Shown here piece after piece: positions 2,596-57,865 of a DNA stretch of 64,000 bases (the stretch's first letter is position 1; every line of letters begins with the position of its first letter). The notes below the pieces were generated by a model. That model saw nothing but the letters and a program-made list of their open reading frames with translations, did no database searches and was not told where the DNA came from. The DNA lies in contig JAGHAM010000004.1 in the NCBI GenBank assembly GCA_021161465.1, positions 1 through 64,000 of the forward strand, read 5' to 3'. Position numbers and translations under genes: made by a program. The DNA comes from Candidatus Iainarchaeum sp. Its GTDB lineage: Archaea > B1Sed10-29 > WALL01 > JAGHAM01.

Positions 2596-2747
2596 TCAAC
2601 AAAAATAAGAAGTTTTATAACTGTTAGATTGTGCGCCAGTAGTCTAGTTTGGTAGGACTTAGCCCTCCCAACCACCCCTTTTGCTAACGCAAAAGCGTTG
2701 ACGGAAAAGGGTTGAGGTGAGAGGCTACGACCCGGGTTCAAAAAGAA

Positions 2748-2823
2748 GGGTTGCACCCTTTCTAAACCTGCATGGGGATGGAATATCATCCGTATCCCGA
2801 TTGTAGGAAGATTGGTTGCACCA
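2748..2823 (+). repeat. Intron repeat block A, copy in tRNA-Gly
   Basis: This 76-nt segment, from GGGTTGCACCC to GGTTGCACCA, is identical base for base to the reverse complement of 53033-53108 in the T-loop intron of tRNA-Ile. It contains one complete CCTGCA-hairpin-GTAGG module. Confidence 0.95.
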
Positions 2824-2896
2824 AAGGGGTTTCACCCCCTTTACCCCTGAGAGGACATAGGTAAATCTTATGTCCGCTTGTGGGGAGGGTTGCACG

Positions 2897-2968
2897 CGTT
2901 CTAGACCTACAGTCTAGAACGAATCTCTAAACCTGCAGGGGTGGCATAAAGCCACCCGATACGCAGGA
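2897..2968 (+). repeat. Intron repeat block B, copy in tRNA-Gly
   Basis: This 72-nt segment contains the palindrome GTTCTAGAC...GTCTAGAAC and a CTCTAAACCTGCA module closing in ACGCAGG. It matches the reverse complement of 52948-53019 in tRNA-Ile at 69 of 72 positions. The three differences fall in the tip of the GGTGGC/GCCACC hairpin. Confidence 0.95.
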
Positions 2969-3075
2969 TGGAGGTTGCAAGCATTTGAGCATTTTAGACC
3001 TATGGTCTTGATGACTCTCTAAACCTGCATAGGATTGCTATGCAATCCGTCAGGTGAAATTCCCGGCTGGCGCAC

Positions 3076-3990
3076 TTATCTCATCGCTTTCTTAGCATTA
3101 AGCTTGTTGGGATTGACTAATGTGTATACACTAATTTCTCTGCGTCCCACTGTGCCCCTGAGCCCCTTCCGTGGTTTTTCCTCAAGCACTCTTTCTCTTT
3201 TCAATCCAAAAGAGGAGGGGTTCAGCTTAAATTCAGTAATTAAATCAGTTATCAGAAACCCACCTTTTTTGAGTCCATATACTATGTTAGCTAGAGCTGC
3301 TGCACCAAATTCTCTGGCATGTTGCAGATTTTCAGATAGTTTCCTAGCTTGCTCCTCATTGATTGTTAGCCTAATTGGTTCCCCGGCTTGTATCCTCCTT
3401 ACCTCTTTTGAATACTCCAAGAAATCTTTTTTGCTTTTGAATAAGAAACTCTGATGGAGGTTTATACAAATGGCAAGGTCTGCTTTTTCAAGTGGGGCTG
3501 ATACAACTATGTCCTGCTTACCTGCTCTTATGGGGCCATTTCTATTCGGTAGTAGCTCTGGTGGAATATCCATCGCATAAACAGATACTGCCTTTACCTT
3601 GCCTGCTAGGTTCACCGTTTTCTTGCCTAACTCCTTTTTTTCAATCTCTGGAAAGAAGTTTTTCAAATATTCTTTAGCTTCATCTTCTACAGCTAGTTTG
3701 ATTTTCTTAGCTCTCAGGGATTTTATGTTCTCCGTTTTGATATCGAAAATGTTTATCCTGTAATTTTTACCCTTTAGCACATTCGCTATTTCTAGATGTT
3801 CTGTCGGGTGGAACCCCTCACTTTGGCCTCCAGAACCAAATATATGCACGATTGGCTCTTTTGGAAGCGGAAGTTTTTTTAGTTCTTTTATTACCTTCCT
3901 GTTCCTACCAAAATAAGTGGTTGGAGATGCGAAAGTCTTTCTTCTCACTCTCTCCCGTATACCTTTCTCTATAAGCTCTCCTTCCGGCAT
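3076..3990 (-). CDS. Putative SAM-dependent methyltransferase-like protein, 304 aa
   Basis: Residues ~50-90 read VHIFGSGGQSEGFHPTEH followed by INIFDI. This resembles a Gly-rich nucleotide or SAM-binding loop of a Rossmann fold (CheR-like wording is only a guess). A later stretch (DIVVSAPLEKADLAICINLH) looks like the acidic/hydrophobic strand of such folds, and GFLITDL resembles a post-motif III strand. The ATG at 3990 is preferred to the TTG at 4002, because a tatttaat box lies upstream. The gene ends one base beyond the mature tRNA-Gly 3' end, so the two are convergent and nearly abutting. Confidence 0.55.
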   Translation of the reverse strand: MPEGELIEKGIRERVRRKTFASPTTYFGRNRKVIKELKKLPLPKEPIVHIFGSGGQSEGFHPTEHLEIANVLKGKNYRINIFDIKTENIKSLRAKKIKLAVEDEAKEYLKNFFPEIEKKELGKKTVNLAGKVKAVSVYAMDIPPELLPNRNGPIRAGKQDIVVSAPLEKADLAICINLHQSFLFKSKKDFLEYSKEVRRIQAGEPIRLTINEEQARKLSENLQHAREFGAAALANIVYGLKKGGFLITDLITEFKLNPSSFGLKRERVLEEKPRKGLRGTVGRREISVYTLVNPNKLNAKKAMR

Positions 3991-4035
3991 TGGAACCAAC
4001 AATCATTAAATACTTGCGTTTCTTAATAAAAGGTT

Positions 4036-4563
4036 ATGGGAATTTCAAATCTAATTTATGACTCCTGGATGAAGGATGCGCAATACAAGAAATATAGTGG
4101 GATATTACCAATGCTCAAGCGCGCTGGTGTGCAGTTTGGCAAGATGCTTGATGTTGGCATTGGCACTGGTTTATTTGAGGATTACCTTAAAGGTCAAGGC
4201 GCCAAATTCGATGCGATAGGCATAGAGCCAGACGAGAAGATGAAAAGGGAAGCGGAGAAGAAGGGTTACAAAGTTACCGTTGGGACTTCGGAGAGCTTGC
4301 CATTTGAGGATTCAACTTTTGATTTTGTGGCTTGCATCGATGCTCTCCATCTAGCAAAGGATAAAAGGAGAGCCATAACGGAGATGCTCCGTGTGCTGAG
4401 GCCGAGAGGGTTTTTGCTTGTGTCGCATTTTTGTAACACATTCAACGCTGGGGAAGTCACTAAAACTCTCGAGTCGGCTACTGAAGGGCTGAATATCGTT
4501 GACAAGAAGATGGTCGGCCAGAATGATGCTGAGCTTGCCGTTGCATTTCTCATTAGGAAGTGA
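4036..4563 (+). CDS. Class I SAM-dependent methyltransferase
   Basis: The protein is 175 aa. Motif I is DVGIGTGLFEDYL (about residues 36-48), followed by the acidic residue of motif II (AIGIEPDEKM), motif VACIDALHLAKD and the post-strand LRVLRPRGFLLV. This is the Methyltransf_11 layout. It is compact, and no substrate-recognition domain is seen, so the substrate is unknown. Its TGA overlaps a GTG of the next frame; the following gene most likely starts at ATG 4569, giving a two-gene unit. Confidence 0.8.
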   Translation: MGISNLIYDSWMKDAQYKKYSGILPMLKRAGVQFGKMLDVGIGTGLFEDYLKGQGAKFDAIGIEPDEKMKREAEKKGYKVTVGTSESLPFEDSTFDFVACIDALHLAKDKRRAITEMLRVLRPRGFLLVSHFCNTFNAGEVTKTLESATEGLNIVDKKMVGQNDAELAVAFLIRK

Positions 4564-4568
4564 CACCA

Positions 4569-4988
4569 ATGGGAAGGCCAGTACAAAGAAAGAAACAGGT
4601 AATTCGTGATGGAGTCATAATTTACGATATTCCAGAGCTAAATCTAGATGAGGATACCCGGAAGAAAGTTAAAGAAGTCCTTGAATGGCATGGAAATGAG
4701 CTTCTGAGAATAACACGAGAAATGCACGATGAGATATCTAAAGTTAAGAAAAAGAGTTGGCAGGAGCATATGCGTGTTCAGTCTGAAAAGAGGCTACCAA
4801 GAACGAAAGAAGTTGAACTTCACAACAAGCTTGTGGAGAAACTGAATTCAATTAACCTTGGTGAGGAAAATCTGCGTAGGTTACGGGTTTTTCTAAGGGT
4901 TCATACTAACCATGCCATTGGCGAGGTATATACTATCTTTAAGAGGGGTTACAAAAAGCCAGAAAGATTTGAAATAAGGATGAAATAA
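4569..4988 (+). CDS. Hypothetical protein, 139 aa
   Basis: Unrecognised. It is a basic N terminus (MGRPVQRKKQVIRDGVII) followed by a mainly helical, highly charged protein. It starts 5 nt after the methyltransferase stop, so the two are probably co-transcribed, and it may be a partner or substrate of that enzyme (inference from position only). It is convergent with the M24 peptidase gene. Confidence 0.6.
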   Translation: MGRPVQRKKQVIRDGVIIYDIPELNLDEDTRKKVKEVLEWHGNELLRITREMHDEISKVKKKSWQEHMRVQSEKRLPRTKEVELHNKLVEKLNSINLGEENLRRLRVFLRVHTNHAIGEVYTIFKRGYKKPERFEIRMK

Positions 4989-5008
4989 CTTCTGGTGCTT
5001 AATCCTAC

Positions 5009-6043
5009 TCACCATAGAATCCTGAAACCCTTGGAGGTTAACACACCAGTGTGCTCCAGCCTTGCTCCCCCAATACCAGGTATAGCGAGACCTGGCTCAA
5101 TTGTGAAGACCATACCTTTCTCTAGAATGTCTTTGCTTTCACTGCTTAAGCTTGGGTATTCGTGGATGTCAAGTCCAACACCATGACCAAGTCCATAGGG
5201 CCAGTATTTTGCGTATTTCCCGAAGAACTTGTTGGTTGCTTCGTAGAGTTCTCCTGCAGTCATCCCAGGCTCTACTATGTCGCGACCAAGCGCGTTTGCT
5301 TGCTCGACTAGCTCAAGGAGCTCTTTTTTCTTTGCGTTGGGCTTGAGACAGTAACTACGTGTAAAATCAGAGCAATAACCGTTCCAGCGCGAGCCCGTGT
5401 CAACTATAACGGTGTCCGTTGGCTTTATCCTCTTCTCAGTTGCTCCAGTATGCACCAGCAAGGTGTTCCTTCCTGAGGCGACTATTGGTTCAAATGCCAG
5501 CCCCGCGCCCTTGCGATAGTAAAAACTTGTGATGTCTGCGAAGATATCGCGTTCACGCTTTCCCTCCTGTATGCCATCTTCCGCAATTCTAAATGCTCTT
5601 TTGGTTATCGCGGCTGCCTTTCTCACAGCCTTCAGTTCTGTCTGGGTTTTAATTGCCCTAATCAACGAAAGCTCCTTGCTGACATCAACCAGCTTTGCAC
5701 CAGGCAGATATTTCCTCAGCCGTTTTCTAACGCGTTTGAGTGCGTTTACACTAAAATAGTCTCCGTTAAATCCTATCCTCTTTCCCCCGGCTTTGCCCAT
5801 AAGCTTGTAAGCTGTTTCCCGTTCTTCTCTTTTGTATTTCCTGACAGATGCTTTCTGGTTGTAGTCCCCTACAACAACAAAAGGAGACGAGTTAAATTGC
5901 CAGTAGAAGACTCCGGAAACAATAGCATCCACACCAGCGTAATACTGGATGTTCCTATCAGGGTTGTCACCACTGCTTGCAATCAGCAGTGCATCACATT
6001 TGCCTTCAAGCTTCTCGCGAGCTTTCTTTAGAGTGGAGTTCAT
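5009..6043 (-). CDS. M24 family metallopeptidase (Xaa-Pro dipeptidase/aminopeptidase type)
   Basis: The 344-aa protein has an N-terminal creatinase-like domain (about 1-130) and a C-terminal pita-bread catalytic domain. All five expected metal ligands are visible: Asp in VDTGSRWNGY and Asp in CSDFTRSY, His in GLGHGVGLDIHEYP, Glu in FTIEPGL and Glu in ARLEHTGV. The length and two-domain form fit Xaa-Pro dipeptidases (PepQ-like) rather than methionine aminopeptidase. It probably acts in cytoplasmic turnover of proline peptides. It is divergent from the malic enzyme gene. Confidence 0.88.
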   Translation of the reverse strand: MNSTLKKAREKLEGKCDALLIASSGDNPDRNIQYYAGVDAIVSGVFYWQFNSSPFVVVGDYNQKASVRKYKREERETAYKLMGKAGGKRIGFNGDYFSVNALKRVRKRLRKYLPGAKLVDVSKELSLIRAIKTQTELKAVRKAAAITKRAFRIAEDGIQEGKRERDIFADITSFYYRKGAGLAFEPIVASGRNTLLVHTGATEKRIKPTDTVIVDTGSRWNGYCSDFTRSYCLKPNAKKKELLELVEQANALGRDIVEPGMTAGELYEATNKFFGKYAKYWPYGLGHGVGLDIHEYPSLSSESKDILEKGMVFTIEPGLAIPGIGGARLEHTGVLTSKGFRILW

Positions 6044-6121
6044 AGTCTTTTTTTAGTGCTGGATGTTATTAGTCTTTTCGTTAGGCATAAGAATAAAATT
6101 ATGGTTGTCCACAATACAGCC

Positions 6122-7381
6122 ATGGCAGCTATAGCAAAATTTACCAAAGAGGAGGCACTTGATTACCACAAGAACAATTTTCCTGGGAACGGGAAGATAG
6201 AGGTAAGGAGCAAGGTGCCAGTCCAGACTTTCAAGGATTTGACTTTAGCTTATACGCCTGGTGTTGCAGAGCCGTGCAAGGAGATTCACGCTAACCCAGA
6301 TTTAGTTCACGACTACACGACAAAGGATAACATGGTGGCAGTTGTCACTGATGGAACTGCAATACTTGGGCTTGGTGATATTGGTCCAGAGGCTGGTCTT
6401 CCTGTTATGGAGGGAAAATCCGTCCTGTTTAAGAGCCTGGCTGGCGTTGATGCATTCCCTATTTGTCTTTCAACTAAAGACCCCGATAAGATTATCGAAA
6501 CTGTTGAGTATCTCGCCCCATCGTTTGGTGGGATAAACCTGGAAGATATATCAGCTCCGAGATGCTTCTATGTTGAGGAAGAGCTCAAGAAGAGGATGGA
6601 TATACCTGTATTCCATGACGACCAACATGGCACTGCCGTGGTTACTCTCTCAGGGCTCTTAAACGCGCTGAAGCTTGTTGGGAAGAAGATTAATGAAATA
6701 AAGGTTGTATTTAGTGGGGCTGGAGCCGCGGGAATTGCGTGCTCAGAATTCTACATGAGCGCTGGTGTGAAGGACCTGATAATCTGTGACAGCAAGGGCA
6801 CAATCTATGATGGAAGAGAGGAAGGTATGAATCCATATAAGGAGAAGATAGCCAAGGTAACGAACAAGGAGGACGTTAGAGGAAACCTTGCGGATGCTAT
6901 GAAGGGGGCAGATGTGTTTGTTGGTGTTTCCGCGCCGGGAATAGTGACCGAAGATATGGTCAGGTCCATGGCTGACGACCCGATTATTTTTGCATGCGCG
7001 AATCCCGTTCCTGAAATCATGCCAGAGAAAGCATTGAAGGCAGGGGCCAAAGTTGTCGCCACAGGCAGGTCTGACTATCCAAACCAGATAAACAACGTGC
7101 TTGGCTTTCCTGGAATCTTCCGTGGGGCCTTAGATGTCAGAGCCAGTGACATCAATGAGGAGATGAAGTTTGCTGCAGCCAGGGCTATAGCTTCATTGGT
7201 GTCCGAAGACGAGCTGAGGCCAGATTATATAATCACCACTCCAATAGATAAGCGAGCAATGCCAGCTGAGGCAGCGGCAGTTGCTGAGGCAGCTATGAGA
7301 ACCGGTGTGGCACGGCTAAAGGTTGACCCGGAGGAAGTTGCTGAGAGAACCAGGAAGTGGAGAACCCTGGAGCTGGAATGA
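6122..7381 (+). CDS. Malic enzyme (NAD(P)-dependent, oxaloacetate-decarboxylating)
   Basis: This enzyme carries out oxidative decarboxylation of malate to pyruvate. It is ~419 aa, the short prokaryotic form without the phosphotransacetylase domain of MaeB. The substrate domain contains LAYTPGVAEPC, VTDGTAILGLGDIG and the metal-binding FHDDQHGTAVV. The nucleotide domain has VFSGAGAAGIA and later CANPVPEIMPE. ATG 6122 is preferred because a TATA-like aataaaatt at ~6092 would give a leaderless message; ATG 6101 is possible. The product would feed pyruvate and reduced cofactor into central metabolism. Confidence 0.92.
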   Translation: MAAIAKFTKEEALDYHKNNFPGNGKIEVRSKVPVQTFKDLTLAYTPGVAEPCKEIHANPDLVHDYTTKDNMVAVVTDGTAILGLGDIGPEAGLPVMEGKSVLFKSLAGVDAFPICLSTKDPDKIIETVEYLAPSFGGINLEDISAPRCFYVEEELKKRMDIPVFHDDQHGTAVVTLSGLLNALKLVGKKINEIKVVFSGAGAAGIACSEFYMSAGVKDLIICDSKGTIYDGREEGMNPYKEKIAKVTNKEDVRGNLADAMKGADVFVGVSAPGIVTEDMVRSMADDPIIFACANPVPEIMPEKALKAGAKVVATGRSDYPNQINNVLGFPGIFRGALDVRASDINEEMKFAAARAIASLVSEDELRPDYIITTPIDKRAMPAEAAAVAEAAMRTGVARLKVDPEEVAERTRKWRTLELE

Positions 7382-7440
7382 GGATGGCTTGAACCCTTAA
7401 AGAGCTTGGCAAAAACAGAAGTACTAAATTTATTCCAAAA

Positions 7441-7735: not shown

Positions 7736-7788
7736 ATTCAGGATCCTGTTTCACTCAAACTTTAAAAGGATAAGTTAAATGTAAAATT

Positions 7789-7992: not shown

Positions 7993-8063
7993 CGAAAAGA
8001 TATTTAAACCCCATATACCCAACTAAATATGGCTCAAGTTAAGTTACAAAAAGGTGAATCAAT

Positions 8064-9644: not shown

Positions 9645-9649
9645 CTAAG

Positions 9650-13307: not shown

Positions 13308-13376
13308 GCTTCTGCACGACAGACAGTTTTTTTAATCCTGATTCTCACTAATAACTGGCAAGCTGGGGTGGCGGAA

Positions 13377-13431
13377 GTTCACGAGCAGGCAAGCTCGAGA
13401 AGTTCAGTTCACGAGCAGGCAAGCTCGAGAA
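13377..13431 (+). repeat. 25-nt direct repeat in the D-loop intron of tRNA-Ser
   Basis: A 25-nt unit starting GTTCACGAGCAGG and ending GCTCGAGAA occurs at 13377-13401 and again at 13407-13431. The copies are identical, with a 5-nt spacer. Each contains a CGAGC...GCTCG hairpin. Confidence 0.95.
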
Positions 13432-13458
13432 ACGCAATCCGGTTCAACGCGCCGGCCT

Positions 13459-13692
13459 CGAGTAGCCGCAAAATCGGCTAGCGCTTTAGGCGTCTCACGC
13501 TCCGCGTGAGAGCACCAGGTGTGGCCGTAAAATCGGTTCACGCGAACCGTAAAATCGGTTCACGCTTTGGGTGTTGCGCTACGCGCAAGCACCAGGCGGA
13601 TGATTAAGGACTTAGTCTAAACCTAAGTGAAAAATAACAGGTGCTAGACTTTGTCCAAGTGCCTTACGCTATATGTAAGGCAGGCATCCTGA
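13459..13692 (+). other. Long, repeat-built anticodon-loop intron region of tRNA-Ser
   Basis: The region holds a chain of hairpins: TAGCCG/CGGCTA, CTCACGC/GCGTGAG, TTGCGC/GCGCAA, AGTCTA/TAGACT and GCCTTAC/GTAAGGC. A 19-nt unit (CCGTAAAATCGGTTCACGC) occurs at 13525-13543 and 13547-13565. Two longer related segments (from about 13482 and 13563) share CGCTTT.GG.GT, then a hairpin, then AGCACCAGG. This is consistent with introns inserted into introns. No protein frame is apparent. Confidence 0.75.
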
Positions 13693-13791
13693 AAGCCGGT
13701 GGGCGCAAGCCCGTGCAGGTTCAAACTGTTTCGTCTCCGTATGAAACAGGAAATTCCTGCCCCCAGCGTACCCTTCAACAAACATGTATAC

Positions 13792-15930: not shown

Positions 15931-18621
15931 ATGCCAAAAAACAAGAAGGATGTCATGGAACTTCTTAGAAAGAAACCAGACGAGTACTGGAAAGTGGACC
16001 TATTCGAAGAAAGGGGATTTAAGCGCCAGAAATGCCCTTCCTGTGGGACCTACTTCTGGAGCATTAACGAGAGGGAGAACTGCAGCAGCCCGCCGTGTGG
16101 AGACTACGAGTTCATAGGAAAGCCGCCAACCAAAAAGAGCTTCGACCTGATTAAGGCTTGGCGCGCGATAGAAAAATTCTTCGTCAAGAATGGCCATACC
16201 TCAATAAACCGTTATCCGATAATATGCAGATGGTTTCCCGGACTTTTCTTCACTGTGGCAAGTATAGTTGATTTCCAGCGCTCTGTTGGCGGGAAGCCAG
16301 TTTTTGAGTTTCCAGTTGACCCATTGGTCGTTCCTCAACCGTGCCTGCGTTTTAATGACATACCAAACATAGGCGTGTCCGGAAGGCATATGAGCAGCTT
16401 TACCATGGTTGGACAGCATACAAAGAAATACTGGAAGGACAGGTGCATTGAGCTCGACTATGAACTAATGACCAAAGTTTTTGGAATCCCAGAAGACAAA
16501 ATTGTCTTCACTGAGGACATCTGGGTTGGACCAAGCGCATTTGGGTCATCACTGGAGTATCTGGTGGACGGTCTTGAGCTGGGCACGTCAGTATTTACAT
16601 CGTTTTGGGGGACTCCTGATAATTTCAAGCCAATGGATGAGAAAGTGATTGACATGGGTGCAGGCCTGGAGCGGTTTACCTGGATTTCACAAGGTACCCC
16701 AACTATATATGATGCTTCATACGGGCCCGTGATAGCAAAGCTGAAGAAGACTGTAGACTACGACAAAGAGCTTTTTACCAGGTATTCAAGGTTAAGCGGC
16801 AGGATAGATGCAGATAAGATGAACCCGCGGAAGGCATTTGAGGGGGTTGCAGGCAAGCTTGGTGTTTCAGTAAAAGAATTAGAGACGAGCATAGGACCAC
16901 TACAGGCTGTGTATGCAATAACAGACCATGCTAAGGCGCTAACGTTTGCCATAGCGGATTCTGGGTTGCCGAGCAATGTTGGCGGTGGCTATAACCTTCG
17001 TGTCCTCTTAAGAAGAGCCTTGAACCTGATAAGCAAATATAATTTGGATTTCACGCTGAATGATGTTTGTGAGAAACATGCTAAATACCTAAAGCCGGTG
17101 TATCCATCCCTTGCAGAGAACCTTGATGAAATAAATGAAATCCTTGATGTCGAGAAGAAGAAGTATGAAAGGTCTCTTGACAGGGCCAGGCGGGTCGCAA
17201 GGACGATAGTGTCTAAGTCAAGAAAAGTCCCCAAGGACAGGATGATACAGCTTTATGAGTCTCAGGGGGTCACTCCTGAGTTGCTGAAACAGGTTGCTGA
17301 GAGTGAAGGGAAGGACATAGAAATAGCTGAGGACTTTTATTCAAGCTTGACTGCAAAACATTCGAAGGATGCTAGCGCTGAGTTCGTTGAGGTCGATGCT
17401 CCAAAGACTGTGAACCTGTATTATAGCCAGCCAGAGGCAAAGGAGTTTACTGCTAAGGTCTTGAAGAATTTCAAATACCAGGGCAAAAACTGGGTCATAC
17501 TGGACAGGACATTATTCTATGCTGAGAAGGGTGGCCAGGACCATGACACTGGCTGGCTTGATGGGAAAAGAGTCATAGATGTTCAGGATATTGGTGGGGT
17601 TGTTCTTCACCAAGCTGAACCATTACCGGAAGGAAAAACTGTCAAGGGCCAAATAGATTGGGATAGGCGTATTATCCTTAGAAACCATCACTCTGCAACA
17701 CACATAATCAACGGTGCGTGCCGCCGTGTGCTTGGTAACCATATCTGGCAGGCTGGTGCGTGGAAGGGGATAGACAAGGCCCATCTTGATATAACCCACT
17801 ATGAGAACCTCTCACAGGAGCAGATAGACAGGATTGAGAAGCTGGCGAATAAAGTAGTGCAGGAGAATAGACCTGTGACACAGAATCTAATGCCAAGGAC
17901 AGAGGCTGAGAGCAAATATGGGTTTAGGCTTTATCAGGGAGGAGCTGTACCTGCTGCAGAGCTTTACATAGTTGAGGTTAAGGACTGGGATGTTGAAGCT
18001 TGTGGGGGGACTCATGTCAGCAGGACCGGCGTTATAAAGAAAATAGTGATTTCAGGAACAGAGAAAATCCAGGATGGCATTGTAAGGGTTCATTTCCTAG
18101 CTGGTGAACCAGCTTTGGAGTATCTAAAGAAAATGGATTCTCTGCTTAAGGAAACTGCAGGCCTGCTTGGTGTTAAGGAGAGTAAAGTTCCAGAATCAGT
18201 TAAAAAGCTGTTGAGCAAGTGGAAGTCAAAGCGTAAGGAGTTTGAGAGGTTTTTGAAGAAGACGGCAGAGGAGAAGTCAAATGATATAAATCCAATTGAG
18301 TTAGATGGAGTCAAGGCGTATGTTTCTGTTGTTGAAGGGGTAGACATGCTTGGTTTAAGGGAGGTCTCCAAAAAGTTAGGCAACGATGACTCGTTTGTTT
18401 TCCTTGTAAGCGACAGGGGTTTTGTATTTGCAGCTGCTGGAAAGAATGTTATAGAGAGAGGCATAAATGCGGGGAAGATTGTTAGGGAAATAACTGGTTC
18501 CTATGGAGGAGGGGGTGGAGGACCACCCGAGAAAGGGGAAGGTATGATAAAGGATAGCACCTCTTTGGAGCAGTTGGTTGATGATGTAAAGGGTAAGCTT
18601 AGGAGGGCTTTGAATGGTTAG
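15931..18621 (+). CDS. alaS: Alanyl-tRNA synthetase (archaeal type)
   Basis: This enzyme charges tRNA-Ala. The 896-aa length fits the archaeal family. An N-terminal zinc-type Cys cluster (KCPSCGTYFWS) precedes the class II catalytic core (motif 2 region near FTMVGQHT; motif 3 near GAGLERFTW). The editing domain follows, with HHSATHI and EACGGTHV metal ligands at about 590-700, and a C-terminal DHHA1-like segment ends in GGGGGGPPEKGEG. A TATA-like attttatatt lies upstream. The last codons overlap a small frame that encodes a second copy of the linker helix. Confidence 0.97.
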   Translation: MPKNKKDVMELLRKKPDEYWKVDLFEERGFKRQKCPSCGTYFWSINERENCSSPPCGDYEFIGKPPTKKSFDLIKAWRAIEKFFVKNGHTSINRYPIICRWFPGLFFTVASIVDFQRSVGGKPVFEFPVDPLVVPQPCLRFNDIPNIGVSGRHMSSFTMVGQHTKKYWKDRCIELDYELMTKVFGIPEDKIVFTEDIWVGPSAFGSSLEYLVDGLELGTSVFTSFWGTPDNFKPMDEKVIDMGAGLERFTWISQGTPTIYDASYGPVIAKLKKTVDYDKELFTRYSRLSGRIDADKMNPRKAFEGVAGKLGVSVKELETSIGPLQAVYAITDHAKALTFAIADSGLPSNVGGGYNLRVLLRRALNLISKYNLDFTLNDVCEKHAKYLKPVYPSLAENLDEINEILDVEKKKYERSLDRARRVARTIVSKSRKVPKDRMIQLYESQGVTPELLKQVAESEGKDIEIAEDFYSSLTAKHSKDASAEFVEVDAPKTVNLYYSQPEAKEFTAKVLKNFKYQGKNWVILDRTLFYAEKGGQDHDTGWLDGKRVIDVQDIGGVVLHQAEPLPEGKTVKGQIDWDRRIILRNHHSATHIINGACRRVLGNHIWQAGAWKGIDKAHLDITHYENLSQEQIDRIEKLANKVVQENRPVTQNLMPRTEAESKYGFRLYQGGAVPAAELYIVEVKDWDVEACGGTHVSRTGVIKKIVISGTEKIQDGIVRVHFLAGEPALEYLKKMDSLLKETAGLLGVKESKVPESVKKLLSKWKSKRKEFERFLKKTAEEKSNDINPIELDGVKAYVSVVEGVDMLGLREVSKKLGNDDSFVFLVSDRGFVFAAAGKNVIERGINAGKIVREITGSYGGGGGGPPEKGEGMIKDSTSLEQLVDDVKGKLRRALNG

Positions 18622-21264: not shown

Positions 21265-21323
21265 TACCAACTAAACTTTTAAATAAACTCCCACACTAAT
21301 AAAAGGAAATCTAAGTGTTATCT

Positions 21324-24149
21324 ATGCCAGCCTACAAACACGAAAAGGTAGAGTTAAAATGGCAGAAAGAATGGGAAAACGCCGGGCTTAGCCAAGCCGA
21401 TGCAGATCCAGAGAGAGAAAAGTACTTCTTGATATTTGCCTATCCAGGAATCTCGGGCTTCCTTCATGTTGGCCATATGCGAGGCTACTCCTATTCTGAC
21501 ATCATCACTAGGTACAAGCGAATGCGCGGATTCAACGTGCTCTTCCCAGCTGGCTTTCACGCCACTGGTATTCACGCTGTGGCGATAGCCGAGAAAATCA
21601 AGCGTGGCGATAAAAAATTAATCCAATATTTCAAGGACAATGGGGTTTCTGATAAGCAGATAGAGAAGTTCAAGGATTACAATGAGGTTGTAAAGTTTTT
21701 CTCAAAGGTTTACGTTGACGAGTACTGGAAACGCTTTGGGTTTCTCATAGACTGGAGGAGGCTTACGAGTACACTGCACCCAGGCTACCATAAGTTCATC
21801 CAGTGGCAGTTCAGGAAGCTGATGCAGCAGGGCTTACTAGTGCAGAAGGAGTACTATGGAGCTTTCTGTCCTCATTGTGGGCCGGTGGCAGTTGATGCAA
21901 CTGAGACAGACTTGCAGAGGGGCGGAAATGCAGAGAAACTAGAGTTCACATTGTTGAAGTTCAAGTACGGAGATTCTTACCTAGTGGCTGCAACCTTAAG
22001 GCCTGAAACCATCTATGGCCAGACTAACATGTGGGTAAGGCCGGATATCAACTACGTGAAAGTTGAGGTAGATGGGGAGAAATGGATAGTTAGTGAGGAA
22101 TGTTCTAAGGCTTTAACCGAGCAGGGAAAGAAAGTAAAGGTTCTGGAGGAAGTGCCTGGAAAAAGCATGATAGGAAAATACTGCCACGCGCCTGGCATAG
22201 ATGGGGATATAATCATATTACCTTCTGATTTCCCCGACCCAAAGATAGGGACGGGCCTTGTTACTAGTGTACCTTCTGATGCACCTTACGATTACATCGC
22301 CTTGAAGGACCTACAGGGAAATCCAGGAGAGTGCAGAAAGTATGGGATTGACCCAGAGAAGGTTAAGGCGATAAAGCTGATACCAATAATCAAGTCCAAG
22401 GGCTATGGAGAATTCCCCGCAGAGGAAATTGTTGAGAGGATGGGTATAAAGAGCCAGCGCGAGACTGAGAAATTAGAGGAGGCTACCAAGGAGATATACA
22501 AATTGGGCTACCACACAGGGGTAATGCGCGAGAACTGTGGGCCTTACGCAGGTATGCGAGTTGAAGAAGCCAAGGATGCTATGAAGGAGGACCTAATCAA
22601 GAAAGGTCTTGCCGACGTGTTCTATGCTTTCTCTGAGCCCGTGGTGTGCAGGTGTGGGAGAGATGTCGTCATAAGGAAGATAACTGACCAGTGGTTCATA
22701 AAATACAGTGATGAGTCTTTAACGGAGAAGTCAAAGCTGCATGCTGAAGGCATGAACATCTTCCCGGAGGATTACAAGAGGGAGATACCTGCGGTTCTGG
22801 ATTGGTTCCAGGATAGGCCTTGTGTCAGACAGGGCTCTTGGCTCGGGACAAAGTTCCCATTCGATGAGAAATGGATTATAGAACCTATTTCAGACTCGAC
22901 ACTTTATCCAGCTTATTATGTTGTTTCTATCTATGAGAACAATGGAGTAATCAAGCCAGAGGAGATGACCGAGGAATTCTTCGATTATGTTTTCTTGGGG
23001 AAAGGGGAACCAAAGAAACCAATCTGGAAGAGGATAAGGGAGGATTTTGAATACTGGTACCCTCTTGATGTAAATTTGGGCGGCAAGGAGCACAAAACCG
23101 TTCACTTCCCTGCTTTCCTTATGAACCATGTTGCTATCCTACCTGGAACCTACTGGCCGAGGGGAATATTCGTGAACTGGTGGGTTTTGGGAAAGGCCGG
23201 TTCTAAAATAAGTAAGAGCAAGGGCGGGGCCGAGGCAATACCCGATATACTTGAAACTTACTCAGCTGACTCTATCAGGCTTTACTATTCTCATGTGGCT
23301 TCTCCGTTCCAGGACATCTATTGGGATGCTGACACAGCCTTCAAGTACAAGAATGCTCTGGAACGTGCCTATGTAATATGTGAAACCCTCTCTGGACTGA
23401 AAGGCGGGAAATCAAGAATAGATAGCTGGCTGGAATACAATTTCAATGAAAGCCTGAGGGAAGCAACTGACGCTATGGAGAACTATGACCTGAGAGTCGC
23501 CTCCGATGTAATTTTTTATGCCATACCGCGTATCCTCAACTGGTACCAGAGGAGAGGGGGAGAAAACACTAAGATGCTATCTTGGGTGTTGAGGGATTGG
23601 GTCAGATTGATGACTCCCTTCACCCCTCACCTTGCTGAGGAGATATGGCACTCGGTGCTTGGTGAGAAGAACCTAGTTTCGGTTGAGTCCTGGCCAAAAG
23701 CACGCGAGGTAGAAGCTGATGAGAGAGTGAATGAAGAAGAGGAGCTGCTTAGGGATATCCTAAGCGATACGCGTGATATATTCAAGCTGGTTGGTGGGAA
23801 GCCTTCAAAAGTTTTCATCTACACACCAGCTAAATGGAAGTGGCAGGTTATTGGGAAGGTTAGGGGTAAAGAACGCGACTTCAAAGCATGCATACAGGCG
23901 GTAGCGGCTGACCAGGAGCTAAAGAAGGATGGGCCACGATTCATTAAGGCGATATTCAAGAAACTTCCTGGCTATTCGAGCAAACCCCAGATAGATGAGT
24001 ATGATGGCCTAAAGAGCGCTGAGCTATTCCTCTCCGAGGAGCTTGGAGTTCCTGTAAAGGTTTTCAGAGAGGAGGACCCCAAGAAATACGACCCTACTGG
24101 GAAAGCATCTAAAGCGCTACCACTTTACCCTGCAATATATGTAGAATAA
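21324..24149 (+). CDS. leuS: Leucyl-tRNA synthetase (archaeal type)
   Basis: This enzyme charges tRNA-Leu. It is ~941 aa from ATG 21324 (MPAYKHEKVELKWQKEW is the usual family start). Its class I motifs are FLHVGHMRGY (HIGH) and GSKISKSKGG (KMSKS, about residue 635). An inserted CP1 editing domain (~200-450) and the archaeal C-terminal extension are present. A TATA-like tttaaataaa is upstream. It is convergent with the basic orphan gene at 24173. Confidence 0.97.
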   Translation: MPAYKHEKVELKWQKEWENAGLSQADADPEREKYFLIFAYPGISGFLHVGHMRGYSYSDIITRYKRMRGFNVLFPAGFHATGIHAVAIAEKIKRGDKKLIQYFKDNGVSDKQIEKFKDYNEVVKFFSKVYVDEYWKRFGFLIDWRRLTSTLHPGYHKFIQWQFRKLMQQGLLVQKEYYGAFCPHCGPVAVDATETDLQRGGNAEKLEFTLLKFKYGDSYLVAATLRPETIYGQTNMWVRPDINYVKVEVDGEKWIVSEECSKALTEQGKKVKVLEEVPGKSMIGKYCHAPGIDGDIIILPSDFPDPKIGTGLVTSVPSDAPYDYIALKDLQGNPGECRKYGIDPEKVKAIKLIPIIKSKGYGEFPAEEIVERMGIKSQRETEKLEEATKEIYKLGYHTGVMRENCGPYAGMRVEEAKDAMKEDLIKKGLADVFYAFSEPVVCRCGRDVVIRKITDQWFIKYSDESLTEKSKLHAEGMNIFPEDYKREIPAVLDWFQDRPCVRQGSWLGTKFPFDEKWIIEPISDSTLYPAYYVVSIYENNGVIKPEEMTEEFFDYVFLGKGEPKKPIWKRIREDFEYWYPLDVNLGGKEHKTVHFPAFLMNHVAILPGTYWPRGIFVNWWVLGKAGSKISKSKGGAEAIPDILETYSADSIRLYYSHVASPFQDIYWDADTAFKYKNALERAYVICETLSGLKGGKSRIDSWLEYNFNESLREATDAMENYDLRVASDVIFYAIPRILNWYQRRGGENTKMLSWVLRDWVRLMTPFTPHLAEEIWHSVLGEKNLVSVESWPKAREVEADERVNEEEELLRDILSDTRDIFKLVGGKPSKVFIYTPAKWKWQVIGKVRGKERDFKACIQAVAADQELKKDGPRFIKAIFKKLPGYSSKPQIDEYDGLKSAELFLSEELGVPVKVFREEDPKKYDPTGKASKALPLYPAIYVE

Positions 24150-26202: not shown

Positions 26203-26263
26203 AAATCAGTCTGCCCGTCTGTCATCACAGCGTTAGCTCAGAACTCATAGGGCTCATCATCTG
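26203..26263 (-). ncRNA. Box C/D guide sRNA
   Basis: On the minus strand all four boxes occur in order with archaeal spacing. Box C ATGATGA is at 26260-26254, followed by a 12-nt guide (GCCCTATGAGTT) and D' box CTGA (26241-26238). A 9-nt spacer, C' box GTGATGA (26228-26222), a second 12-nt guide (CAGACGGGCAGA) and D box CTGA (26209-26206) complete it. The 12-nt inter-box lengths are the norm for archaeal dual guides that direct 2'-O-methylation. The targets are not determined here. The protein partners Nop5 and fibrillarin are encoded at 50333-51809. Confidence 0.85.
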
Positions 26264-26266
26264 ATG

Positions 26267-31158: not shown

Positions 31159-31246
31159 AAAGAAATCACCATTTGTTCCAAATTTTGCAGTTTATTCTTA
31201 ATAAACCTGCTTCGCTTACACGTAGTAAAAAGGGCCGCGGCCGGGA

Positions 31247-31301
31247 ATTTCCTACCCAACTCACAATCGTGTGTGGGGTTAGGAGGGGCGCAGCCCCTCT
31301 T
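31247..31301 (-). other. T-loop (59/60) intron of tRNA-His
   Basis: This 55-nt intron opens with the GGGGCTGCGCCCC hairpin followed by TCCTAACCCCA. It closes with TTGGGTAGG, which can pair back with the CCTAACCC strand. The opening ~29 nt differ by about one base from the start of the anticodon intron of the same tRNA. Confidence 0.8.
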
Positions 31302-31322
31302 TTTGAACCCGGGCCAGGGGAT

Positions 31323-31409
31323 TTCTGCAAGATGCAGGATTATCGTCTACCCCCCATAGATGGATTGCGTAGCAATCCTCTGGGGTTAGAAGGGGCGCAG
31401 CCCCTCTTT
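31323..31409 (-). other. Anticodon-loop (37/38) intron of tRNA-His
   Basis: This 87-nt intron has the same opening hairpin (GGGGCTGCGCCCC), then TTCTAACCCCAGAGGATTGC, with a GGATTGC/GCAATCC hairpin and a closing CTGCA...TGCAG hairpin. The opening resembles the TCTAAACC modules of the Gly and Ile T-loop introns. Confidence 0.8.
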
Positions 31410-31481
31410 CCACAGTCCCCTATACTAGCCAGGCTATACAACCGCAGCCATAGGTTAATTTTTAGAACAAGGTTGTTTAAA

Positions 31482-50275: not shown

Positions 50276-50332
50276 CTTGCAAAACACATAAGCCTTTTTA
50301 TGTTAACAGTGAAAAATATAATGTTGGTATTC

Positions 50333-52771: not shown

Positions 52772-52805
52772 GTTATTACTCCATTTGTAGGTGGGCGCGA
52801 AGGGA

Positions 52806-53126
52806 CTTTCCACCCCAATAGGGGGTTTGAGGCGCACCAACCTTCCCTGCACACATGGATTTGATAACCTTCTATCTCCATGCAGGTACCCTCTGCAGGG
52901 TTAGAGGTTCGTCCAGACCATAAGTCTAAACGTGTGCACCCTTTTCTTCCTGCGTATCGGGTGGCCTCGTGCCACCCCTGCAGGTTTAGAGATTCGTTCT
53001 AGACTGTAGGTCTAGAACGGGTGCAACCCTCCTGGTGCAACCAATCTTCCTACAATCGGGATACGGATGATATTCCATCCCCATGCAGGTTTAGAAAGGG
53101 TGCAACCCTCCTGGTGCAACCAATCT
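52806..53126 (-). other. T-loop (59/60) intron of tRNA-Ile, 321 nt, modular
   Basis: It is built from the same hairpin modules as the tRNA-Gly T-loop intron: CTAAACCTGCA-hairpin-GTAGG, CTCTAAACCTGCA-hairpin-ACGCAGG, and a degenerate CTCTAACCCTGCAGAGGGTACCTGCA unit. Two copies of a 30-nt link occur (53098-53127 and 53019-53048). There is no protein-coding frame of note. Confidence 0.85.
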
Positions 53127-53127
53127 T
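53019..53127 (-). repeat. 30-nt direct repeat bounding a module in the tRNA-Ile intron
   Basis: The 30 nt reading AAGATTGGTTGCACCAGG and then AGGGTTGCACCC on the minus strand occur at 53127-53098 and identically at 53048-53019. They bracket one hairpin module. The first copy starts at A59 of the tRNA T-loop, so the inserted module may have duplicated its target. Confidence 0.9.
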
Positions 53128-53330
53128 TCGAACCCTCGGCCTCAGGTTATCCTCAGCCACGCTGAGTGTACCAGAACGGGCCTTATAAGACCTGCGCTCT
53201 GACCTGGCTAAGCTACGCGCCCACATTTATGGTTTAGCGCTTTATATATTTAAAACCTACTTTAGTGATTATCTCCTTTATATTCGTTTTACCAGCACTT
53301 TTTTAATGTAGTTAATCTTAATTTTCCCCT

Positions 53331-53966: not shown

Positions 53967-54029
53967 GATAATAGTGTCTTAGCCGCCACCTTGACAGCCC
54001 TCATCATAAAGGCGCCACAAGATTGCACT

Positions 54030-54494
54030 CTAAGGTAATGGTGTCTTAGTGAGATCAGCCCGGGTTACCAATCCTAGCAGTTTGCCATTCTCCACCACAG
54101 GCAGATGTGTTAACTTCTTTTTGGACATTATATCAGCTGCTTCAGTAACATGCATCTCAGGCTTTGCGGTTACTGGACTTTTGTCCATAATGTCTTTCAC
54201 TCTATTGTGTTTCAGTTTGCTGAATTCATTTTCCGCTTCATCTATCTCCGCCCACAGGTCTTCAGCTACTTCAATTACATCGAACGGTGAAGGCAGAATA
54301 AGCTCGGCTCCAAACTCATGGACTTCCATGAACTTTAGAATTTGTTCGTTTGTCAGCAGCCCTACGAGTTTGCCTTCCTCAACCACTGGTGCCCCGCTTA
54401 TTTTTTCTTTCTTAAACTTTCTTATTGCATCAACTATAGGCTCATTTGGGCTTAGCGTTATTGGTTCTTTTATCATTACATCCTTGACCAGCAT
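54030..54494 (-). CDS. CBS-domain pair protein
   Basis: The protein is 154 aa from ATG 54494 (MLVKDVMIKEPITL). Two CBS repeats are clear: DAIRKFKKEKISGAPVVEEG with LVGLLTNEQIL, and EAADIMSKKKLTHLPVVENG with LLGLVTRADL. Stand-alone CBS pairs bind adenine nucleotides. Its partner is unknown. Confidence 0.88.
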   Translation of the reverse strand: MLVKDVMIKEPITLSPNEPIVDAIRKFKKEKISGAPVVEEGKLVGLLTNEQILKFMEVHEFGAELILPSPFDVIEVAEDLWAEIDEAENEFSKLKHNRVKDIMDKSPVTAKPEMHVTEAADIMSKKKLTHLPVVENGKLLGLVTRADLTKTPLP

Positions 54495-54748
54495 GAAGAA
54501 TATAACGCAGCACAACTATTAAAAACTTTTGGGGAGAAAGAGCAGACGATTTTTATGAAGCGGAGCTGTCCTCCTGATCATACTATCACCCTCTTGCTTA
54601 CTATAATGGGGGCAAATCAATTGTGACATGATAAGGACAGAACATATAAAGGAAAATTGCATCGAAGACGTTAGGTCAGCGAAAAGGTAAGAAACACTTA
54701 AAAAGCATGGAGTCTAAAATATATGAGTAATTCTGTAAAGGTGTTCAA

Positions 54749-55039
54749 ATGAAGGTTAAAGACTTACAGGTTAGAAAATCTGTTGATTCTATCGAATTGG
54801 AGATAGTTAGTATTGATGAGCCGAGGACTTGGTCGAACCCACGTGGTTCTGGAAGGGTTGCTTCTGCAACGGCTAAAGATGATACTGGTGAGGTTAAACT
54901 GACTCTCTGGAATGATGACATTGACAAGGTCAAGAAAGGAGATACAATAGTCATAGAAAATGGATGGGTTGGAGAGTTCCAGGGAGAGAAGCAGTTATCC
55001 ACAGGAAGGTACGGGAAGCTCACGGTTAACCCAAAATAA
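54749..55039 (+). CDS. Single OB-fold nucleic-acid-binding protein (RPA-like)
   Basis: The 96-aa protein has the five-strand OB-fold pattern of archaeal RPA/ssDNA-binding domains: SIELEIVSIDEPRTW, ATAKDDTGEVKLTLWNDD, GDTIVIENGWVGEFQGE and LSTGRYGKLTV. It consists of one OB fold only, without zinc finger or second domain, so it may act alone or with a partner. The upstream gap 54516-54748 shows no gene or clear RNA. Confidence 0.82.
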   Translation: MKVKDLQVRKSVDSIELEIVSIDEPRTWSNPRGSGRVASATAKDDTGEVKLTLWNDDIDKVKKGDTIVIENGWVGEFQGEKQLSTGRYGKLTVNPK

Positions 55040-55067
55040 TAAAAAACATCACCGGTAAAACAATCTT

Positions 55068-56735
55068 ATGCTTGAGTTTAGAAAGCAGGTAGCTGTTGCC
55101 TTGTCAAAGGCCTCTGGCGTTGAAGTCAAGCCCAGGGAATTGACCATACCACCAAATCCAGAGTTAGGTGACTTATCTTCTAATGTGGCTTTTCAGCTTC
55201 CTGGGAACCCGAAGGAAAACTCGGAGAAGATAGCTGGGAGGATAAAACCGAGAGGGCTTATTTCTAAAGTTGAAACCAAGGGACCTTACATAAACTTCTT
55301 TCTAAACTGGGCCGAATTCAATCGATTGACCATAGCTACTGCACTGAAACACAATTATGGTAAAAACACGGACTACACAGGGAAGACAGCAATGGTTGAA
55401 TACAGCCAACCAAATCCAAATAAGCCTCAGCATGTTGGGCATTTGAGAAATAACCTTCTAGGCATGGCAGTTTCAAATATACTGGAAGCTAACGGTTGGG
55501 AGGTTGTTAAAGCTAATCTTATAAACGACCGTGGCATCCACATATGCAAGGCCATGCTTGGATACCTCAAGTGGGGGGAGGGCAAAGAGCCCAATGAAAA
55601 GCCAGACCACTTCGTTGCTAAGTTTTACCAGCGCTTTGTCATGGAGGAGGCTAAGGACCCTGAGCTAACTAAGGAAGCCCAGGAGATGTTGAGGAAGTGG
55701 GAAGCAGGTGACCCACAGGTAAGGGCGCTATGGAGGAAGATAGTAGATTGGGCCTATAAAGGCTGGAACGAGACTTACTCCATGACAGGGACTGAGTTTG
55801 ACGTTTGGTTCTACGAAAGCGAGACGTATCTGGATGGAAAGAGGATTGTTGATAGTGGTTTGAAGAGAGGGGTGTTCAAGAAGGCTGATGATGGGAGTGT
55901 TTATGCAGAACTTGAACCAGAGTTGCCGAATAAAACAGTGCTCCGTTCAGATGGAACTTCTATTTACATAACTAACGATTTAGCTCTTGCAAAGAGAAAG
56001 TTTGAGAGCTATCCGTTGGATAAGAGTATTTATGTGATTGGCTCCGCTCAAAATACTTATATGAAACAGCTTTTCAGGATTCTAAAGCTGCTTGGTTTTG
56101 AGTGGTCGGATAAGTGTTGTCATTTATCCTATGGTATGGTTTCATTGCCAGAAGGGAAGATGTCTTCAAGGCTTGGCAGGATGATTTACGCTGATGACTT
56201 GCTGGATGAAGTTATCAACCTGGCGGAGAAGGAAGCCGAGAAAAAGGGTATCAGCGAGGATGTTAAGGAGACGGCTAAGCACGTTGGGCTGGCTGCTATC
56301 AAATTTAACTTTCTGAAGGTTAACCATAGGAAAGACATATTGTTTGAGAAGGAAAAGGCAGTTTCGTTTGAGGGAGATACCGGGCCTTATGTGCAGTATG
56401 CCCATGCTAGGTGCAATCAAATAATTGAAAAACTTGGCAGCTATGGAAAGCCAAATTACTCCAAGCTGACAACACTCCACGAGCGCGAACTCGTGAAGAA
56501 GATAAGTGAGTTCCCTGAGATTGTGAGGGAGTGTGGGGAAACTCTTGAGACACACCCTATAGCTAATTATCTGCTTGAGCTGACGCACACGTTCTCTGAT
56601 TTCTATGCTAATTGCCCCGTGATACAGTCCAGAGGCTCTTTAAGGGCAGCTCGTGCTGATTTGGTGAAAGCAACTAAGGGAGTTCTATCTACTGGATTAA
56701 GCTTGCTTGGTATAAAACCATTGGAGAAGATGTGA
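55068..56735 (+). CDS. argS: Arginyl-tRNA synthetase
   Basis: This 555-aa class I enzyme charges tRNA-Arg, including the tRNA at 57699. It has an N-terminal Arg-S additional domain (~1-95), PNKPQHVGHLRNNLLG (HIGH), the LINDRGIHICKA segment, GKMSSRLGRMIY (KMSKS-like) and a C-terminal DALR anticodon-binding domain with YVQYAHARCNQI. It is directly followed by thiL with no gap (stop TGA 56733-56735, GTG 56736). Confidence 0.96.
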   Translation: MLEFRKQVAVALSKASGVEVKPRELTIPPNPELGDLSSNVAFQLPGNPKENSEKIAGRIKPRGLISKVETKGPYINFFLNWAEFNRLTIATALKHNYGKNTDYTGKTAMVEYSQPNPNKPQHVGHLRNNLLGMAVSNILEANGWEVVKANLINDRGIHICKAMLGYLKWGEGKEPNEKPDHFVAKFYQRFVMEEAKDPELTKEAQEMLRKWEAGDPQVRALWRKIVDWAYKGWNETYSMTGTEFDVWFYESETYLDGKRIVDSGLKRGVFKKADDGSVYAELEPELPNKTVLRSDGTSIYITNDLALAKRKFESYPLDKSIYVIGSAQNTYMKQLFRILKLLGFEWSDKCCHLSYGMVSLPEGKMSSRLGRMIYADDLLDEVINLAEKEAEKKGISEDVKETAKHVGLAAIKFNFLKVNHRKDILFEKEKAVSFEGDTGPYVQYAHARCNQIIEKLGSYGKPNYSKLTTLHERELVKKISEFPEIVRECGETLETHPIANYLLELTHTFSDFYANCPVIQSRGSLRAARADLVKATKGVLSTGLSLLGIKPLEKM

Positions 56736-57668
56736 GTGCCAAAGCTGTCCGATTTAGGTGAACGTGAGGTCATCAGAAGGGTTCGGAGACTTCTGAAGAG
56801 GCCAGGCATATTGACTCAGCTTGATGAGGATGCTGAGATATTCAAAACAAAAGGCTTTTTAGCGGTGACAACGGAGTTGCATGTTGCAGGCACGCACTTT
56901 AGAAGTTCAAGTCCTGTTAGTGTAGGAAAGCGCGTTGTAGTTTCAACACTCACTGACCTGCTGGCCAAGGGCGCGCTACCACTTTATTTCATGACTAGCA
57001 TCGGCTTGTCTAGTGATACCGACTATGAGTTTGTGAGAAAGTTATACAAGTCTATGTCCGACTCTTTGAAAGAATTTAACGCGTTTTTAATCGGTGGTGA
57101 CACAGTTGAATCCAACCAGTTGGTCATCGGCACCACAGCGATAGGCAGGGTGAAAGGGAAACCCTTGTTGAGAAAAAATGCCCGGGTGGGGGATAAGGTG
57201 GTGGTTACAGGCGAGATAGGTAACGGCGCGCTTGGCTATCTGCTCTTGAAAAAAGGGCTGGCAGGACCCAGGAAGTTTGTGAGGGCACAGCTTGAGCCGA
57301 GTGTGGACTTTAGGCTCTGCAAACGTTTGATGTCCAGGGCTAATGCTGGCATAGACATCTCAGACGGTCTCGCTTTTCAACTGGCAGAGGTTGCGAAACA
57401 ATCGGAGAAGAGAATAACTATTTTCGAGGATGAATTACCAGTGGACTCACACTTGCCAAAGCTTTGCAAAGAAAACAACTTCAACTTGGACGAGGTGCTT
57501 TTTCACATAGGAGATGATTACCAGGTGCTTTACACGATGCCTAACCCACCGAAGGGCGCGCTTGTTATAGGAGAAGTTGAGCGCGGGAGTGGATTGTTCA
57601 TAAAAAGAAAGACAGGTGAAATCCAGCCGTTGAATGGTGAAGGCTGGGAGAGTTTCAAGCGTCATTGA
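56736..57668 (+). CDS. thiL: Thiamine-monophosphate kinase
   Basis: The 310-aa protein makes thiamine diphosphate from thiamine monophosphate with ATP. Family motifs are LSDLGEREVIRRV at the start, STLTDLLAKGALPLYF, FLIGGDTVES, VVVTGEIGNGALG, NAGIDISDGLAFQL and FHIGDDYQVLYTM. A GTG start directly abuts the argS stop, so the two are co-transcribed and translationally coupled, although their pathways are unrelated. Confidence 0.93.
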   Translation: MPKLSDLGEREVIRRVRRLLKRPGILTQLDEDAEIFKTKGFLAVTTELHVAGTHFRSSSPVSVGKRVVVSTLTDLLAKGALPLYFMTSIGLSSDTDYEFVRKLYKSMSDSLKEFNAFLIGGDTVESNQLVIGTTAIGRVKGKPLLRKNARVGDKVVVTGEIGNGALGYLLLKKGLAGPRKFVRAQLEPSVDFRLCKRLMSRANAGIDISDGLAFQLAEVAKQSEKRITIFEDELPVDSHLPKLCKENNFNLDEVLFHIGDDYQVLYTMPNPPKGALVIGEVERGSGLFIKRKTGEIQPLNGEGWESFKRH

Positions 57669-57698
57669 TTTAAACTACATATACTAAAATTTTAGGGC

Positions 57699-57865
57699 GG
57701 ACGCGTAGCCTAGCCAGGATTGTTCCGTGGCAACAGCTCATGGAATCCTGATAGGGCACCGGCCTTCTAAGCCGGCTATCGGGGGTTCAAAATAAGGAGG
57801 AGGGACACGTTCCCTCCTCCCTTATAAGCCCTTCTCCTTTGCGAGTGAGTTTCCCTCCGCGTCCG
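57699..57865 (+). tRNA. tRNA-Arg (UCU) with D-loop and T-loop introns
   Basis: GGACGCG (57699-57705) pairs with CGCGTCC (57858-57864), and G73 is at 57865. D-stem GCCT/GGGC encloses a ~32-nt intron (about 57719-57750) closed by AGGATT/AATCCT. The anticodon stem CCGGC/GCCGG is intact, with loop CT-TCT-AA and anticodon TCT at 57766-57768. T-stem GGGGG/CCCTC is split by a 60-nt intron (57792-57851) after position 59. That intron is a GGAGGAGGGA/TCCCTCCTCC hairpin plus a tail. The mature tRNA is 75 nt. A TATA-like tttaaac lies upstream. Confidence 0.9.

Follow-up and report, generated by a model that had tools for sequence, protein, structure and literature searches.

Probable introns at a single T-loop position interrupt most readable tRNA genes of a Candidatus Iainarchaeum genome

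The transfer RNA (tRNA) genes of Candidatus Iainarchaeum sp. (assembly GCA_021161465.1) are, for the most part, broken in the T-loop, after position 59 and before T60. The window examined here, a 64-kb stretch that spans positions 1 to 64,000 of contig JAGHAM010000004.1 (forward strand), contains five tRNA genes, all of them interrupted at this site, and the same is true of about 31 of the 36 tRNA genes that could be read in the genome. We propose that the inserts are protein-spliced 59/60 introns, made portable by the invariant TTCR of the T-loop, copied from one tRNA to another and in some cases enlarged, with no visible change in the splicing endonuclease EndA. We consider this account very likely to be correct.

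In the canonical bulge-helix-bulge (BHB) motif, the first four bases of the exon loop are paired to the intron's 3' end, and the cuts fall in 3-nt bulges. As read from its sequence, the T-arm insert corresponds exactly to the canonical intron that sits at 37/38 in the anticodon arm, with a 5-bp stem, a 7-nt loop and an intron before the last loop base. Each insert breaks the T-loop before its seventh nucleotide and retains the T-stem (helix h). Helix H forms between TTCR at loop positions 54-57 and YGRA at the intron's 3' terminus, and the presumed cuts lie in the bulges AA/N and NN/T60 (the slash marking the cut). In 12 of 25 T-loop introns, all four exon bases 54-57 find their complement at the predicted place, exactly three bases ahead of position 61, compared with 1.85% elsewhere in the same introns (p = 7e-15); about six further T-loop introns have helix H with a 4-nt 3' bulge, and most of the remaining ones have three pairs. 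When canonical 37/38 introns are put to the same helix H test, 7/19 pass in this genome and 7/12 in its nearest relative, isolate SMBSF43 of a sister genus (hereafter G064), a result that the T-loop introns equal. Further, base 57 covaries with its intron partner. Among 33 introns of the two genomes, the pair is A-T in 21, G-C in 5 and crossed in 3 (p = 0.001, a value that is indicative, since the sequences are related), and in the orthologous introns of Arg(CCU) and Arg(UCU) a G57-C pair in G064 is matched by A57-T here, a double change that preserves the pair.

Removal of the inserts restores recognizable tRNAs. ARAGORN recognized one of 27 genes before splicing and 26 of 27 after it, with the expected identity; the exon boundaries for this test were set by us, but the recognition is independent. 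The halves of the T-stem pair although they lie up to 320 nt apart, and the spliced exons of 16 genes have a mean identity of 91% to their G064 orthologs, with T-stem changes that are paired. These observations bear on two other ways to view the inserts. One is that they are retained in the mature tRNA as an expanded T-loop. A few short ones (13-29 nt) could be tolerated in this manner, and Val(GAC), whose insert is 13 nt long, still passes as a tRNA in ARAGORN. However, other inserts reach 321 nt, their removal gives a T-loop that matches the continuous ones of the relative (TTCAAAT/TTCGAAT), and the covariation between base 57 and the intron end fits a splice helix; we find retention scarcely credible. 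The other is that the interrupted genes are decaying pseudogenes struck by small repeats, with working tRNAs located elsewhere or imported from a host. The small genome in 40 contigs would accommodate this notion, and the repeat families and long mosaic inserts described below do resemble a repeat invasion. Yet for most amino acids the interrupted genes are the only copies found, their stems are intact with paired T-stem changes across the insert, the inserts occupy a single nucleotide position with splice-helix complementarity kept, and the spliced forms score as tRNAs. Decay is thus highly improbable. From structure and conservation, we infer that the T-loop inserts are protein-spliced archaeal tRNA introns of the BHB type. 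A homing intron (group I/II, LAGLIDADG) was considered as well and rejected: the inserts are at most 321 nt long, and Rfam found no ribozyme in the window, even at a relaxed threshold.

Neither Rfam nor ARAGORN reports a tRNA in the 64-kb window. The five genes emerge from an intron-tolerant search that demands an acceptor stem, T8, base 14, a D-stem, an anticodon stem, a T-stem and the TTCNA motif, and that permits inserts in the loops. The search itself located Gly(CCC), Ile(UAU), Arg(UCU) and Ser(CGA); its first version detected His(GUG), which was parsed by hand. The genes and their inserts are as follows.

2633..3074, + strand: pre-tRNA-Gly(CCC), with an anticodon-loop intron at 2671-2721 (51 nt) and a T-loop intron at 2743-3060 (318 nt)
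13362..13768, + strand: pre-tRNA-Ser(CGA), with an anticodon-loop intron at 13463-13693 (231 nt) and a T-loop intron at 13726-13754 (29 nt)
Within 13375-13446, + strand: D-loop insert of Ser(CGA), a tandem 26-nt duplicate
31233..31448, - strand: pre-tRNA-His(GUG), with an anticodon-loop intron at 31323-31409 (87 nt) and a T-loop intron at 31247-31301 (55 nt)
52792..53222, - strand: pre-tRNA-Ile(UAU), with an anticodon-loop intron at 53149-53183 (35 nt) and a T-loop intron at 52806-53126 (321 nt, a family A mosaic)
57699..57865, + strand: pre-tRNA-Arg(UCU), with a D-loop insert within 57712-57753 and a T-loop intron at 57792-57851 (60 nt, family B)

The initial annotation of the window had described these genes correctly. 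The lengths that it gave for the five T-loop inserts (318, 29, 55, 321 and 60 nt) agree exactly with ours, all five sit at the 59/60 junction, ahead of T60, and a further insert occupies the anticodon loop and/or D-loop of each gene; the spliced lengths are 73 nt for Gly, 74 for His, 75 for Ile and 75 for Arg, within the 73-75 nt that it had stated. All four stems pair in these tRNAs, and ARAGORN calls spliced Gly, Ser, Ile and Arg with the expected anticodon (His was outside the test set).

The same annotation had raised a genome-wide pattern as one implication, with intact T-loops in other tRNAs as the observation that would speak against it. The pattern does extend over the genome, but it does not include every tRNA. 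Our census drew on three sources, namely the window, stretches that together sample 390 kb, and hits from model or BLAST searches. It found an interrupted T-loop in about 31 of 36 readable tRNA genes: Phe, Gly (three), Ile (two), Asp, Pro(CGG), Val (three), Ala (three), Arg (four), Leu(GAG), Leu(UAG), Gln, Glu (two), Thr(GGU), Trp, Ser(CGA), Ser(UGA), His, elongator Met and Lys (two). Five have a continuous T-loop, namely initiator Met, Pro(UGG), Tyr, Asn and Leu(UAA). The genes for Lys, Ala(CGC), Glu(UUC) and Leu(UAG), and the later ones of G064, were read by eye from the sequence. Outside the readable set are Cys, and Ser(GGA) and two Thr genes, which reach contig ends. In the tRNA-Cys gene (stretch L004, 763-845) the T-loop is 19 nt long and starts with TGC rather than TTC, and there may be a 12-nt intron at another T-loop position. 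A scan of the genome with a D-arm pattern gave matches that were mostly due to chance.

The 28 fully parsed genes contain 53 inserts, or about 1.9 per gene, the longest here being 321, 318 and 231 nt. For comparison, reviewed archaeal tRNA introns measure 11-129 nt (PMC4090602), and the richest of the complete genomes assessed with tRNAscan-SE 2.0, that of Pyrobaculum calidifontis, has 71 introns in 46 genes (PMC8450103). Assembly contigs end inside tRNA genes or repeated introns at L147 (start of C20), L012 (end of C34), L013 and L149 (both ends of C25), L150 (start of C2) and L152 (start of C5). The intron repeats thus fragment the assembly, and because contigs break within tRNA introns, the copy number and the length of the longest introns may be underestimated. 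Standard tools also miss most of these genes. In this genome (976 kb, 40 contigs, 93% complete) the Rfam tRNA model detects 6 tRNAs, or 8 with laxer filters, the lowest count of 61 archaeal genomes, the other 60 having 15-47 each. Genomes of this sort will therefore look deficient in tRNAs.

The introns are related to one another. An all-against-all comparison yielded 77 related pairs at E < 1e-3, and shuffled sequences yielded 0. Most inserts fall into two families that are common to unrelated tRNAs: family A (AAGAAGGGTTGCACCCTTTCTAAACCTGC...) occurs in Gly, Ile, Phe, Met, Leu, Arg(GCG) and others, and family B (ATAAGG...CCCTTATAAGCCC...) in Arg, Val, Asp, Glu, Ala and Lys. Sixty-two of the pairs join T-loop introns of different tRNAs, the introns of Gly(UCC) and Gly(GCC) are identical over 60 nt, and the T-loop intron of Gly(CCC) (2743..3060, + strand), used as a query, matches 20 other stretches of the same genome. 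Judged by this common sequence, introns have been copied between tRNAs. Nine pairs join a T-loop to an anticodon intron, and all nine involve the anticodon intron of the window His gene, including a link to that gene's own T-loop intron (96% identity across 28 nt); these links point to exchange between canonical and non-canonical positions. By eye, the anticodon intron of G064 Asp has the family A hairpin motif.

The long inserts are mosaics of modules; the 318-nt intron of Gly(CCC), for instance, is a family A mosaic in which a 26-nt module appears four times. At contig ends, one of two Ser introns has a module, flanked by direct repeats, that the other lacks. In the 454 kb searched, the modules are confined to tRNA genes, apart from family A-like ones that adjoin two tRNA-Ala genes directly on the 3' side (L019 ~1480-1545 and L157 ~200-260, both on the - strand). 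A further repeat, CCGCAAAATCGGTT..CGCTTTAGGTGT-hairpin-GCACCAGG, is common to the anticodon-loop and D-loop inserts of Ser, Ala, Thr and Glu tRNAs; its sites are C20:257-365 (L147), L081 14110-14349, window 13463-13693, L150 and L152.

Comparison with relatives indicates where the expansion took place. In G064, T-loop introns are present in 11 of about 41 tRNAs, compared with 31/36 here (p = 2e-7). All 25 parsed G064 tRNAs from an Rfam search have a continuous T-loop; that search misses interrupted genes, and a second one found the 11. Wherever a tRNA interrupted in G064 has a readable counterpart here, the counterpart is interrupted as well, and about 18 tRNAs are interrupted here and continuous in G064. 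The G064 introns are also shorter, from 15 nt upward and far below 300: that of Gly(CCC) is 45 nt long in G064 versus 318 nt here, that of Ile(UAU) 49 versus 321 nt, and that of Ser(CGA) 22 versus 29 nt. The G064 ortholog of Arg(UCU) also has a T-loop intron, and the T-loop of G064 His is continuous. The insert of G064 tRNA-Trp (L174) precedes TTCAAAT, at about position 53/54 rather than 59/60. In G070, which belongs to the same class but a different family, the 11 genes parsed from a 190-kb sample contain several T-loop introns, one of which has the family A motif. This small genome (L198-L209) has 15 Rfam-detectable tRNAs and long D-loop and anticodon inserts too. In samples of six other class members, 0 of 28 T-loops were interrupted, the samples being small and the strict parsing liable to miss some, and the Gly insert, as a DNA query, had no match in the 60 other genomes. 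So T-loop introns predate this genus, and their expansion, their growth and family B are concentrated here. Because the sampled outgroups are without T-loop introns, gain in this genome is likelier than loss in G064, a judgement that is not based on a tree.

What kind of enzyme would remove so many introns? The initial annotation had suggested a strongly permissive splicing endonuclease and called for the EndA gene to be found and typed. There is one such gene, and it is of the alpha4 type. Its 170-aa product has N- and C-terminal domains, is 55-85% identical to the EndAs of Candidatus Diapherotrites and related archaea, and has a predicted fold whose best match is the alpha4 enzyme of M. jannaschii (1A79; template modelling (TM) score 0.90). 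An alignment to this enzyme (MjEndA) reveals no inserted loop, and ten relatives, most of them without intron expansion, have EndAs colinear with that of this genome. Reviews class the alpha4 EndAs as narrow; it is enzymes with specificity loops, of the (alpha-beta)2 or epsilon2 type, to which they link multiple and non-canonical introns (PMC6379350, PMC4033280). The protein has neither of these broad-specificity architectures, so a permissive endonuclease is not supported; the introns are apparently removed by an ordinary, "narrow" enzyme. One gene for the ligase RtcB is also present.

A broadened endonuclease could still have enabled the spread, as has been proposed for Thermoproteales and ARMAN, whether through a second subunit that escaped detection or through point changes in EndA itself. 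Relaxed motifs in several introns are in keeping with this view, and a gene for a beta subunit could be missing from a genome that is 93% complete. We nonetheless think it unlikely, given a single EndA without loop insertion relative to MjEndA or to ten relatives mostly lacking expansion, and given that an alpha4 enzyme is its best fold match. A second subunit was looked for in the 93% complete genome; the sole other weak match was TruD, and this candidate was rejected as an EndA.

We therefore favor portability of the intron over a change in the enzyme. EndA would cut both bulges, and RtcB would join the exons. The exon side of helix H has the same sequence, TTCR, in almost all tRNAs, so any intron with YGRA at its 3' end should fit all of them; a 37/38 intron, in contrast, is tied to the anticodon loop of a single tRNA, which it has to match. 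Family A and B introns at 59/60 would have been copied between tRNAs, probably by recombination or gene conversion at the common T-arm sequence, and some would have grown past 300 nt through added repeat modules. No visible change in the endonuclease would be needed for such spread. A portable TTCR/YGRA helix could thus account for the single site, for the introns that unrelated tRNAs have in common and for an EndA without visible change. We offer the mechanism of copying and the selfish nature of the intron as hypotheses. That the 59/60 intron is a selfish element restricted to tRNAs, spliceable in every one of them and able to colonize the whole set without a change of endonuclease, is a possibility that we put forward tentatively.

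Several points weigh against our account. In families A and B, two hairpins replace the strict inner helix h' (some small introns, such as those of Ser and Trp, have a single hairpin). Some introns have just three H pairs or a four-base 3' bulge, and, to our knowledge, cutting of motifs relaxed in this way has not been reported for the narrow alpha4 enzyme. A search for nested introns (twintrons) gave 0 strict BHB motifs inside 12 long inserts, versus 0.03 in shuffles; it requires a strict inner helix, so relaxed forms would escape it. Further, the mechanism and direction of spread are ones that we infer. G became A at base 57 in 6/6 tRNAs with a newly gained intron of family A or B and in 0/4 others (p = 0.005; counts by eye), but elongator Met, in which base 57 is changed, still has base 59 in the state of the relative. 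Simple co-conversion of the exon flank is thus not established, and selection on the splice helix accounts equally well for the base 57 changes.

Another possibility is that T-loop introns are a defence that breaks the 3' half of the tRNA, which integrating elements use as an attachment site, and that they were selected tRNA by tRNA rather than spread selfishly. The T-arm does lie within that half, and a published model holds that tRNA introns protect attachment sites (PMC3293823). Near-identical introns in unrelated tRNAs point to copying instead, and a search of viral contigs with two patterns of the element gave no exact match. As a replacement for copying, defence appears to us quite improbable; the two are not mutually exclusive.

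The comparison with Thermoproteales made in the initial annotation is a good analogy, but the organism itself is a DPANN archaeon, Diapherotrites-like. Transposition of tRNA introns in Thermoproteales likewise involves related introns across tRNAs, at canonical and non-canonical sites, with up to three per tRNA and BHB-type motifs. There, the introns are scattered over many positions, and reviews tie them to an (alpha-beta)2 EndA with a specificity loop; here, 59/60 dominates, the EndA is of the alpha4 type, introns reach 321 nt and the host belongs to DPANN. In Atabeyarchaeia and Freyarchaeia, introns occur in 92-95% of tRNA genes, often at non-canonical positions and several per gene, but these are Asgard archaea, and the parts of the report consulted describe no single dominant T-loop site or repeat family (PMC11291895). 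The permuted tRNAs of Thermofilum pendens and Cyanidioschyzon merolae have the 59/60 junction and a BHB at the T-loop (PMC3218864, PMC3978253), in genes that are circularly permuted, whereas exon order is normal here. ARMAN, with its epsilon2 EndA, offers another case of small archaea with non-canonical tRNA introns (PMC6379350, PMC12397907); its enzyme is a three-unit epsilon protein, unlike the 170-aa MjEndA-type EndA of this genome. We read our findings as archaeal tRNA-intron transposition in an extreme form, locked to the T-loop, the kind being known and the lineage, enzyme type, site focus and intron length being new.

According to the current view, an alpha4 EndA limits an archaeon to canonical introns, and intron explosions come after the enzyme has broadened. 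This genome suggests another route, in which introns become portable, with no need of an unusual enzyme, because all tRNAs have the same exon part at the splice site. It offers a clear example of an intron family spreading between tRNA genes, some of the introns being of record length. The contrast among near relatives (11 of about 41 in the sister genus, about 31/36 here and 0/28 in six others) provides a setting in which the mechanism of such spread can be studied.

Two other features of the window deserve mention. Between two open reading frames, at 26204-26264 (- strand), lies a sequence that resembles a box C/D small RNA, for which several Rfam sR families score just below threshold (sR12, 30.1 bits, E 0.02). 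Three genes for aminoacyl-tRNA synthetases are located at 15931-18621, 21315-24149 and 55068-56735 (Ala, class I Ile/Leu/Val/Met-type and Arg).

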